From Streptomyces marianii (lineage in GTDB: Bacteria; Actinomycetota; Actinomycetes; Streptomycetales; Streptomycetaceae), in contig NZ_VAWE01000001.1 of NCBI RefSeq assembly GCF_005795905.1, positions 1,922,001-1,986,000 of the forward strand: DNA of 64,000 nucleotides, given 5' to 3'. The position numbers were made by a program, and so were the translations under genes. The notes beneath the pieces are model-generated. The model was given only the letters and a program-made list of their open reading frames with translations. It was not told where the DNA came from and did no database searches. Within the stretch, counting starts at the first letter, position 1. Each line of letters starts with the position of its first letter. Below, one piece after another: positions 42,269-46,373 of this stretch.

Positions 42269-42856
42269 TCAGCGGTCGCGGAGTCGGGCCAGGGTGTGGT
42301 CGAGCTCGGCGGCGCGGGGGCGGTTGTGGGGGAGCTTGGCGAGCATGGCGGCCATGCCGCAGGTGTTGGTGAGGGCGGAGACGGCCAGTCCGGCGGCGAT
42401 GCCCGCCGACAGGATCTGGAATGCGGGATGGACGAGGAGGCCGAGGAGGAGGCCGAGAAGGACGACGGCGCCGGCGGTGAGGCGGACCTGTCGTTCCATG
42501 CCCCAGGTGGCGCGAGTGGCGCCCTGGGGGCGGTGCAGGTCATGGCCGTCGGCAGCCCAGGCACCGGTGCCGCCGGAGAGCGTGGCGGTGGCGATGCCGT
42601 TCTCGGCGAGGATCCGGCAGGCGTTCTCCGAGCGGGCGCCGGAAGCGCAGACGACGAGGACGTCGCCGCGGTCGGCGACGTGGCGGATGTCGGGCAGGGC
42701 CCGCTGGATCTGGTCGAGGGGAATGTTCAGCGCACCGGGCAGGTGGCCGCCGGCGTACTCACCCGGGGTGCGTACGTCGATGACGGTCAGTTCGTGCAGC
42801 CGGGTGCGGGCTTCGCCGGGACCGAGGGTGGTGGGCGTGACCATGGCGGATGTCAT
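42269..42856 (-). CDS. Rhodanese with C-terminal DUF2892 membrane domain
   Basis: Residues about 15-110 are a rhodanese domain (VIDVRTPGEYAGGHLPGALNIP) with catalytic C70 in VVCASGARSENA; the C-terminal part (RLTAGAVVLLGLLLGLLVHPAFQILSAGIAAGLAVSALTNTCGMAAML) is the two-helix DUF2892 domain. It should transfer sulfane sulfur at the inner face of the membrane. It diverges from the CstR-like repressor over a TACCCC-TG-GGGGTA operator. Start may be four codons later (ATG at 42844). Confidence 0.9.
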   Translation of the reverse strand: MTSAMVTPTTLGPGEARTRLHELTVIDVRTPGEYAGGHLPGALNIPLDQIQRALPDIRHVADRGDVLVVCASGARSENACRILAENGIATATLSGGTGAWAADGHDLHRPQGATRATWGMERQVRLTAGAVVLLGLLLGLLVHPAFQILSAGIAAGLAVSALTNTCGMAAMLAKLPHNRPRAAELDHTLARLRDR

Positions 42857-42895
42857 CCTTTTCTGTCGGCAGTGCCCCCGACGAGGGGAGTATCT

Positions 42896-42909
42896 TACCC
42901 CTGGGGGTA
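42896..42909. promoter_or_regulatory. CsoR/CstR-type operator 1
   Basis: TACCCC-TG-GGGGTA, a palindrome of the CsoR/CstR operator type, sits between the divergent rhodanese and repressor genes, next to a TAAGAT -10 candidate for the rhodanese. Confidence 0.85.
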
Positions 42910-42926
42910 TTTAGTGAGGAGTGATG

Positions 42927-43214
42927 ATGGAGCTTGATCTGGCGGGAGCGGAGCTGAAGGCGGTCCTGAACCGGCTGCGCCGGGCACAGGGCCAGATCTC
43001 TGGGGTGATCCGGATGATCGAGGAGGGCAGGGACTGCGAGGAGGTCGTGACCCAGCTGGCGGCCGCGTCCCGCGCGCTGGACCGGGCCGGATTCGCGATC
43101 ATCGCCACGGGGCTGCAGCAGTGCCTGACCGGGATGGAGGACGGCAGCCGCTCCGGTGAGGATCGCGACGAGATGCGCGGCCGGCTGGAGAAGCTCTTCC
43201 TCTCGCTGGCCTGA
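42927..43214 (+). CDS. CsoR-family repressor, CstR-like persulfide sensor
   Basis: The 95-residue helical protein is a CsoR/FrmR/RcnR member ([58 protein letters not shown]). The two conserved cysteines are present (C37 and C66), but the position of the copper-binding His of CsoR (four before the second Cys) is Gly62. That pattern is that of CstR, which senses per- and polysulfides by forming a disulfide or polysulfide link. ATG at 42927 is chosen because GGAG ends five bases earlier; two closer starts (GTG 42921, ATG 42924) are possible. It is surrounded by sulfur-transfer genes with its operator motif. Confidence 0.9.
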
Positions 43215-43253
43215 GCCGTCCTCAGCCGCCCCGAGGCGCGGCGGCCTGCGCGC

Positions 43254-43997
43254 TCAGACGACCACGTCGACGAGCATGAAGGCCGCCACCCCCAGCAGGG
43301 CGAAGGCGAAGGCCCGTTGCAGGGCCTGGCCGGTGATCCTCGCGGCGAGGCGCTTCCCGTCCCAGGCACCGAGGACCGCGGCTCCGGTGAACGGGGCGAT
43401 CACCTCCCAGCGCAGGTCCCCGCCGGTTCCGGTCCGCGCGGTGAGCGCGGCCAGCGAATTGACGGTGATGACCAGCAGGCTCGTGCCCACTGCCTGCTTC
43501 ATCCGCAGACCGAGGACCCCCACCAGAGCCGGGACGGCGAGGAACCCGCCACCGACGCCGAGGAAGCCCGTCACGGCTCCCAGCCCGGCCCCCGCTCCCG
43601 CCGCCCTGGCGGGACGTATCCGCTCCGGCGGCGGGGAGTTCGCGGGTCGCAGCATGCGCAGGGCGGCCAGCGCGGCGATGACCGCGAAGGCGGCGGTGAG
43701 CACCTCTGCCGGGAGGCGACCCGCGACCGCTCCGGCGAGGAACGCCGGCAGGATGCCCGCGGCCGCGAACAGCGTCCCGGTCTTCCATACGGCGTTGCCG
43801 TCTCTCGCGTGGGCGTAGAGGGCGGCGGCCGAGGTAGCGGTGACGATGACCAGGCTCGCGGTGGTCGCCGACGCGGGCGAGAACCCCAGCAGGTAGATCA
43901 GTGCGGGGACCGCGAGCACGCTGCCACCGCCGCCGAGGGCGCCGAGGGCCAGGCCGATGACGGCCCCGGCGATCAGGGCGAGGATCAGGGTGCTCAC
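43254..43997 (-). CDS. TauE/SafE-family sulfite/sulfur exporter
   Basis: The 247-residue protein has eight membrane helices in two repeats, each with the TauE glycine motif (LALGALGGGGSVLAVPALIYLLGFSP and TGFLGVGGGFLAVPALVGVLGLRMKQAVGTSL). Members export sulfite, sulfoacetate or thiosulfate; in CstR regulons TauE accompanies persulfide oxidation and removes the product. The GTG start overlaps the stop of the rhodanese gene (GTGA), so it is coupled to it. Confidence 0.9.
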   Translation of the reverse strand: MSTLILALIAGAVIGLALGALGGGGSVLAVPALIYLLGFSPASATTASLVIVTATSAAALYAHARDGNAVWKTGTLFAAAGILPAFLAGAVAGRLPAEVLTAAFAVIAALAALRMLRPANSPPPERIRPARAAGAGAGLGAVTGFLGVGGGFLAVPALVGVLGLRMKQAVGTSLLVITVNSLAALTARTGTGGDLRWEVIAPFTGAAVLGAWDGKRLAARITGQALQRAFAFALLGVAAFMLVDVVV

Positions 43998-45823: not shown

Positions 45824-45848
45824 CGGGATACTCCTTTCGCGTGGAAAT

Positions 45849-45862
45849 TACCCCCAGGGGTA
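45849..45862. promoter_or_regulatory. CsoR/CstR-type operator 2
   Basis: TACCCC-CA-GGGGTA, same palindrome as the site before the repressor gene, lies 26 bases upstream of the MBL-rhodanese start, over its promoter. Confidence 0.85.
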
Positions 45863-45881
45863 TTACACTCACCCTAACCTT

Positions 45882-45895
45882 TACCCCCGGGGGTA
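45882..45895. promoter_or_regulatory. CsoR/CstR-type operator 3
   Basis: TACCCCCGGGGGTA, a perfect 14-base palindrome 33 bases from site 2 (about three helical turns), followed by TATATTT. It is placed to control the divergent DUF302 gene and, with site 2, the MBL-rhodanese gene. Confidence 0.85.
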
Positions 45896-45974
45896 TATTT
45901 CACCGAGTGGCAGAGGTCACATGGCAGCGCACCCGCCGGGTACCCCGGCCGTACCGGAAACGAGGTGGAAGACC

Positions 45975-46373
45975 GTGTCCTACGAACGGACCGTGACGCT
46001 GAAGGCACCGTTCGAGCAGGTGCAGCAGGCCGTCCGGCAGGCCCTGGCCGAGCAGGGCTTCGGCGTCCTGACCGAGATCGACGTACAGGCGACCCTCAAG
46101 GCCAGGCTCGACCACGACATGGAGCGGTACCTGATCCTCGGCGCCTGCAACCCGCCCCTGGCACGCCAGGCCCTGGAGGCCGACCGTTCCGTCGGGCTCC
46201 TGCTGCCCTGCAACGTCGTCGTCCGGGCCGACGGCGACCAGGTCGTCGTGGAGGCCCTCGACCCCGGCGCCATGGTCGCCCTCACCGGCCTGGACGCCAT
46301 GGCACCCGTCGCGCGTGAGGCCACCCGCCGTCTCGACGCGGCCCTCTCCTCCCTCAATGCCGCGGGCGCATGA
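45975..46373 (+). CDS. DUF302 family protein
   Basis: The 132-residue protein matches DUF302 (KAPFEQVQQAVRQALAEQGFGVLTEIDVQATLKARLDHDMERYLILGACNPPLARQALEADRSVGLLLPCNVVVRADGDQVVVEALDP), including the conserved GACNPPLA segment with its Cys. The family has no assigned reaction, but members are frequent beside rhodaneses and CsoR-like regulators. GAGGTGGAAG precedes the GTG; an ATG 18 codons upstream is an alternative. The shared operator pair makes it a likely member of the CstR-like regulon. Confidence 0.85.
   Translation: MSYERTVTLKAPFEQVQQAVRQALAEQGFGVLTEIDVQATLKARLDHDMERYLILGACNPPLARQALEADRSVGLLLPCNVVVRADGDQVVVEALDPGAMVALTGLDAMAPVAREATRRLDAALSSLNAAGA

Follow-up and report, generated by a model that had tools for sequence, protein, structure and literature searches.

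The window analysed here, 64,000 nucleotides of the Streptomyces marianii genome (assembly GCF_005795905.1, contig NZ_VAWE01000001.1, positions 1,922,001 to 1,986,000), contains six genes and three palindromic sites (Table 1) that very probably make up a regulon for homeostasis of sulfane sulfur (persulfide and polysulfide) of the kind governed by ScCsoR in S. coelicolor. The nearest named proteins likewise pointed to Streptomyces. Pfam domain names in these genes were Rhodanese with YgaP-like_TM, Trns_repr_metal, TauE, Rhodanese, Lactamase_B with Rhodanese, and DUF302, PF11127 in the first of them presumably being the former DUF2892. These assignments agree with the gene set, DUF302 included, put forward in an earlier reading made without database searches (the sequence-only reading), and with its statement that the set contains no sulfide:quinone reductase (SQR): none was found by Pfam among the six genes, and a single SQR query, of the mitochondrial type, gave just two weak partial matches across the genome.

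Table 1. Genes and candidate operators of the cluster (window positions); the last row refers to stretch L169, fetched around a DUF302 gene of another genome
Feature	Position	Strand	Basis
YgaP-type rhodanese, C-terminal membrane segment, motif CASGAR	42269..42856	-	Pfam PF00581 + PF11127; motif read from sequence
Operator 1, TACCCCTGGGGGTA, inside the divergent YgaP-type rhodanese/cstR promoter	42896..42909	.	pattern search
CsoR-family repressor, CstR/ScCsoR type (C37, G62, C66)	42927..43214	+	PF02583; residues; subfamily signature
TauE/SafE sulfite-exporter family protein, GTG start	43254..43997	-	PF01925
Single-domain rhodanese, motif CRSGHR	43994..44359	-	PF00581
Metallo-beta-lactamase (MBL)-rhodanese, probably ScPDO class; C-terminal rhodanese motif CAGGMR	44456..45823	-	PF00753 + PF00581; five solved homologues; class survey
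Operator 2, TACCCCCAGGGGTA, 26 bp ahead of MBL-rhodanese start	45849..45862	.	pattern search
Operator 3, TACCCCCGGGGGTA, 33 bp from operator 2	45882..45895	.	pattern search
DUF302 protein, 132 aa, conserved C58 (GAC) and C79 (PCN)	45975..46373	+	Pfam
MMPL-family transporter; relatives in L164, L135, L137, L140, L160, L166, L171, L139, L117, L102, L131 and L097	L169 4180-6324

The YgaP-type rhodanese gene and the repressor gene (cstR) diverge around operator 1. On the other side of the cluster, the GTG start of the TauE gene overlaps the stop codon of the single-domain rhodanese gene (GTGA junction), so that the MBL-rhodanese, rhodanese and TauE genes may be read as one operon, which would be transcribed from a promoter region shared with DUF302. 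In agreement with the sequence-only reading, the palindrome TACCCCnnGGGGTA occurred once ahead of the repressor gene and twice ahead of the MBL-rhodanese/DUF302 pair, the three perfect copies in the window being at 42896, 45849 and 45882. The genome search that this reading had called for yielded, in 9.01 Mb, four perfect palindromes, namely the three at the cluster and one at C1:7884269. The fourth copy separates a further pair of genes near 7.884 Mb (L004, 879-1831), encoding a YgaP-type rhodanese and a paralogue of CstR; this paralogue is 91% identical to CstR of the window. Loose matches were background in window and genome alike, and the perfect copies stood out. With up to two mismatches, four matches were noted in the window as compared with a shuffle mean of 1.79 (10 of 100 shuffles reached four); with up to one mismatch, 12 places were noted in the genome, four of them perfect, versus 18 for the reversed control, such that one-mismatch sites were not enriched. 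The core TACCn6GGTA was found 127 times in 836 kb of Streptomyces DUF302 neighbourhoods versus 12 times for its reversed control, and 183 versus 17 times in 1.03 Mb of actinobacterial DNA around DUF302.

The repressor matched PF02583 (CsoR/DUF156) with a score of 83.8 bits against a cut-off of 22.8. Read from ATG 42927, which is preceded by GAGGAG, the protein carries C37, G62 and C66; as the sequence-only reading had stated, both cysteines are kept and Gly62 occupies the position of the copper-ligand histidine, and the Cys-His-Cys site of copper CsoR is thus absent. The same Cys-Gly-Cys combination was seen in 90 of 93 repressor matches from the window and fetched loci (a set in which some contigs appear twice and which includes the genome's own paralogue and its own canonical CsoR), the sole Cys-His-Cys sequence being the canonical CsoR. 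A start codon giving Cys37 was possible in 45 of 45 repressor matches of at least 70% identity versus 1 of 48 others. A GC-tract palindrome at the promoters of rhodanese and persulfide dioxygenase (PDO) genes, which is a mark of CstR, was likewise present, and CstR-like reactive-sulfur control of the cluster is well supported. Passages of PMC7533328 describe how polysulfide releases S. coelicolor ScCsoR, a reaction that persulfidates Cys37 and needs Cys66 as well, and how C37S and C66S variants fail to respond; by analogy with those experiments, the window repressor would bind its sites and be released by sulfane sulfur.

The MBL-rhodanese has the domain architecture of type III PDO (PF00753 plus PF00581) and matched the solved structures 3tp9 (4e-59) and 3r2u (3.5e-38). 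Its residues H55, H57, D59, H112 and H180 are kept, and Gly134 occupies the column of the third iron ligand. Among the window-class alignments of at least 50% identity, which take in the window and repeated contigs, all 57 had glycine at this column. The same held for 20 of 20 further genomes, selected because DUF302 does not adjoin the gene, and for 240 of 240 sequences among the matches listed (two lists of the best 120, window entry included). Distant MBL-rhodanese matches (approximately 31-36% identity) near some DUF302 loci carried Asp. A search of the genome for a second MBL-rhodanese, with the window protein as query, gave no other match longer than about 130 residues.

The DUF302 protein has a PF03625 domain and the TT1751 fold, its predicted structure having the fold of 1j3m. 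Fifty-seven PF03625 matches were obtained in 46 of 199 Streptomyces genomes, and 54 stretches besides the window were fetched, two matches sharing a stretch with another. Exclusion of the 13 of these 54 loci (L077-L080, L083-L091) in which no match reached 50% identity to the window DUF302 left 41 loci and the window (n=42). DUF302 diverged from an MBL-rhodanese gene, with an operator between, in 20 of the 42. At least one intervening site was present in 20/20 of these divergent loci and two sites 33-37 bp apart in 18/20 (17 pairs by a stricter automatic pattern, 18 from the listed positions, with L074 added), the distance being exactly 35 bp in 11; L066 had a single site and L067 two sites 102 bp apart. 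In a further 6/42, DUF302 lay downstream of a co-directional cstR that had a site ahead of it, and in 3/42 (L042, L071 and L082) a site lay within 300 bp but neither arrangement applied. Sites within 200 bp upstream of DUF302 were noted at 23 of 42 genes as compared with 160 of 7720 random positions. An MBL-rhodanese orthologue (a match of at least 68% identity over at least 300 residues, only eight candidates being scored in the listed genomes) occurred in 33 of 37 genomes with DUF302 (a match of at least 73 bits, plus the interrupted copy of G084) versus 64 of 162 others, kinship being ignored in this comparison.

Similar associations were noted in a wider set of loci and plasmids. Among 80 actinobacterial loci (the best 80 of at least 584 relatives), CstR was found in 54, MBL-rhodanese in 32, either in 61 and both in 25; by our own reading DUF302 was directly preceded by a co-directional cstR in 25 of the 80, many of them from Mycobacterium and Nocardia. 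The two surveys overlap (e.g., L101/L050, L108/L052, L116/L062, L120/L058 and L159/L046) and are not independent. Among six plasmid records opened, DUF302 was accompanied by a CsoR-family gene on plasmids of Streptomyces sp. Mg1, R. erythropolis, M. adipatum and R. antarcticus; the order was YgaP-like/DUF302/TauE/CstR/MBL in R. erythropolis and CstR/DUF302/TauE/MBL in M. adipatum, in one direction in each case. In Thermomicrobium roseum, of another phylum, DUF302 occurred together with ArsR, MBL hydrolase and rhodanese genes. Both cysteines of DUF302 were kept in 41 of the 42 Streptomyces loci (a stop codon interrupts the remaining copy), in 120 of 120 close homologues among the matches listed, and in the solved homologues 1j3m and 1q9u. 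A thiol role of DUF302 in sulfane-sulfur handling, offered as a hypothesis, would fit this conservation, and the protein probably helps with the same job as the reactive-sulfur circuit.

In the mechanism envisaged, reduced CstR would bind the GC-tract palindromes and silence two divergent promoter regions, that of the YgaP-type rhodanese and cstR and that of MBL-rhodanese/rhodanese/TauE and DUF302. Modification of Cys37 by sulfane sulfur, for which Cys66 would be needed, would cause CstR to leave the DNA. The rhodaneses may then hand sulfane sulfur to a thiol carrier, the MBL-rhodanese would oxidise persulfide to sulfite, and TauE would export the sulfite. The DUF302 product would most likely serve, hypothetically, as a soluble protein with two cysteines, taking up sulfane sulfur or handing it on.

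Several observations weigh against this reading. In whole-sequence comparison of the repressor, InrS (3.8e-10) tied with E. faecalis chain 7mq1 (3.9e-10), which bears the name CsoR in PDB and which we take to be E. faecalis CstR, and no NCBIfam model scored above its cut-off. Together with membership of the CsoR family, the presence next door of a cupredoxin-CopA ATPase (47509-50031) and a DUF305 protein (50909-51628), and of P-type ATPase-like genes close to DUF302 in some loci, might be taken to mean that the repressor senses copper or another metal and that the cluster answers metal stress. This explanation is very improbable given the glycine that replaces the copper-site histidine here and in nearly all matches, a separate Cys-His-Cys CsoR elsewhere in the genome (at 4.53 Mb, the other two of its three CsoR-family genes lacking that site), and the restriction of the four perfect palindromes to two rhodanese/cstR promoters and the MBL-rhodanese/DUF302 promoter. 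The metal site of the MBL-rhodanese is a further difficulty, since the 2-His-1-Asp iron triad of type III PDO is incomplete: in the five solved homologues shown, the position of Gly134 is taken by Asp, and in passages of PMC6060420 the corresponding D130 of AcPDO is an iron ligand and D130A is inactive. The class could accordingly be some other metal hydrolase or a sulfurtransferase, with sulfane sulfur detoxified by another route. We consider this quite unlikely in view of the report, in passages of PMC7533328, that S. coelicolor ScPDO consumed O2 with glutathione persulfide (GSSH); the gene order, the spacing of the sites and the type of repressor make it very probable that ScPDO belongs to the glycine class. 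Because ScPDO used O2 with GSSH and is very probably of this class, the metal site must be completed by another residue, unless the chemistry is a different one; this is a lead and not a result. Dioxygenase activity of the window enzyme would follow by analogy with the S. coelicolor experiments.

The place of DUF302 in the regulon is less secure. Of 20 Streptomyces genomes selected for the lack of DUF302 next to the MBL-rhodanese gene, 18 also had at least two sites ahead of that gene (17 of 19 if L193 is set aside because of its weak DUF302-like match; the genomes were hand-picked from the MBL-rhodanese list, not drawn at random, and G190, with locus L186, has DUF302 elsewhere), and for this reason the tandem sites of the window appear to be first of all operators of the MBL-rhodanese gene. 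Moreover, 13 of the 42 Streptomyces DUF302 genes had neither a site within 300 bp nor cstR directly upstream, eight of these lying in stretches with no CstR or MBL-rhodanese; on plasmid pFRL4 of Streptomyces sp. F2, none of these genes was annotated near DUF302; and CstR, MBL-rhodanese and site were absent from every stretch of the 13 loci with divergent DUF302 domains, so that the link to the CstR module applies to the window branch and does not extend to the DUF302 family as a whole. DUF302 might thus be a bystander in a shared intergenic region, the regulon being otherwise as described and the tandem sites serving the MBL-rhodanese promoter alone. This is unlikely in our view, since a site stood ahead of cstR in 6/6 Streptomyces cstR-DUF302 pairs, cstR was directly upstream of DUF302 in nearly a third of the 80 actinobacterial loci, the clusters of R. 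erythropolis and M. adipatum run in one direction, and DUF302 of L071 has sites at -40 and -61 with no CstR or MBL-rhodanese in the stretch. Control of DUF302 by CstR in the window would accordingly rest on the short shared intergenic region and on the separate cstR-DUF302 arrangements. The sequence-only reading had taken the palindromes at both divergent promoters as placing DUF302 inside the regulon; the gene and the sites stand as claimed, the argument from tandem sites has become weaker, and membership now draws its support from the cstR-DUF302 pairs and upstream cstR genes.

A broader proposal goes beyond the sulfane-sulfur regulon itself. Actinobacteria might possess a distinct persulfide-removal module in which the dioxygenase class dispenses with a carboxylate ligand, maybe through a three-His centre (H55, H57 and H112), and DUF302 is a dedicated two-cysteine sulfane-sulfur carrier controlled by CstR in several gene arrangements; three-His metal centres are familiar from cysteine dioxygenase. 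We regard this proposal as tentative and, as a whole, rather improbable. The lack of this iron ligand in the MBL-rhodanese class bears directly on the mode of action of the enzyme known as ScPDO. Structures of the widespread DUF302 family were released in 2004, and its name still denotes unknown function; that its members in actinobacteria repeatedly pair with a repressor of the persulfide-sensor type provides one concrete functional hypothesis.

Other genes were noted beside the cluster and in related loci. Adjoining the cluster (47509-51628) are the genes of the DUF305 protein and of the copper P-type ATPase, which carries a cupredoxin domain at its N terminus; no perfect palindrome was found at either gene in the window search. 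A mycothiol-dependent nitroreductase (Rv2466c-like, PF22234; 41357-41977) also adjoins it and is possibly tied to it through low-molecular-weight thiol chemistry. An MMPL-family transporter gene (Table 1) was present near DUF302 in Nocardia, Rhodococcus, Gordonia, Actinomadura and Streptomyces; because TACCn6GGTA was found within 250 bp upstream of 13 of 16 matches (two sites in 12 of the 13), this transporter may be another CstR target. Window-type DUF302 genes in stretches with no CstR, MBL-rhodanese or site were those of L040, L045, L047, L050, L057, L060, L072 and L076; in L040 a universal stress protein and a P-type ATPase-like match lay close to DUF302. Near 4609 in L193, from a genome with no listed PF03625 match, a weak (34%) DUF302-like match diverges from the MBL-rhodanese gene and is perhaps a diverged or decaying DUF302. 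An additional palindrome of the type TACC...GAAGGTA occurred right after the first operator in the intergenic regions of L059 and L074 and ahead of DUF302 in L063.

The staphylococcal cst operon contains CstR, TauE and an MBL-rhodanese (CstB) and is defined by CstA, a TusA-rhodanese, and SQR. Set against this operon as generally known, the window shares CstR, TauE and a CstB-like protein, whereas its six proteins include neither SQR nor a TusA domain by Pfam, and the cluster is therefore not a cst operon of the S. aureus type. The iron-ligand Asp that is absent from the window class is kept in 3r2u, a Metallo-beta-lactamase family protein which we presume to be CstB. The parallel with this operon drawn by the sequence-only reading thus holds for CstR-like sulfur control and fails as regards the nearest relative, which is the S. 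coelicolor ScCsoR circuit. TT1751 (PDB 1j3m) and 1q9u share the DUF302 fold and the two cysteines with the window protein.

As described in passages of PMC7533328, the S. coelicolor locus SCO0618-SCO0621 likewise has a CsoR-like repressor with Cys37 and Cys66, a PDO-rhodanese, TauE and a rhodanese, and ATACCn6GGTAT sites, two ahead of pdo and one between csoR and rhod. ScCsoR binds the two sites ahead of pdo and the csoR-rhod intergenic region and represses pdo, tauE, rhod and its own gene, and the published site positions of -48 and -9 imply a spacing of 39 bp. The window differs in having a single-domain rhodanese between MBL-rhodanese and TauE and a divergent DUF302 gene. Since the Cys37 numbering fits and a Streptomyces locus in our survey (L186) has its genes arranged as in S. 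coelicolor (PDO-TauE and CstR/Rhod) and its sites separated by 39 bp, the window cluster would, judged from the published description, be an orthologue of the ScCsoR circuit with two extra genes. DUF302 as an additional member proved real and not new, inasmuch as passages of a 2018 report on Arthrobacter plasmids (PMC6305408) list it in a SUL module with a sulfur dioxygenase, a CsoR-family regulator, two rhodaneses and TauE; that module has in addition an MFS transporter and a small unknown protein, and the same passages do not describe operators. In other bacteria DUF302 lies between soxA and soxB, near sox genes and with no mention of CstR in the passages concerned (PMC5037610), and a DUF302 gene resembling one in a Synechocystis sqr operon is noted in PMC5061849. 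The ScCsoR-type core circuit and a link of DUF302 with sulfur genes were thus already known, and what the present analysis adds to them are the operator data and the counts.

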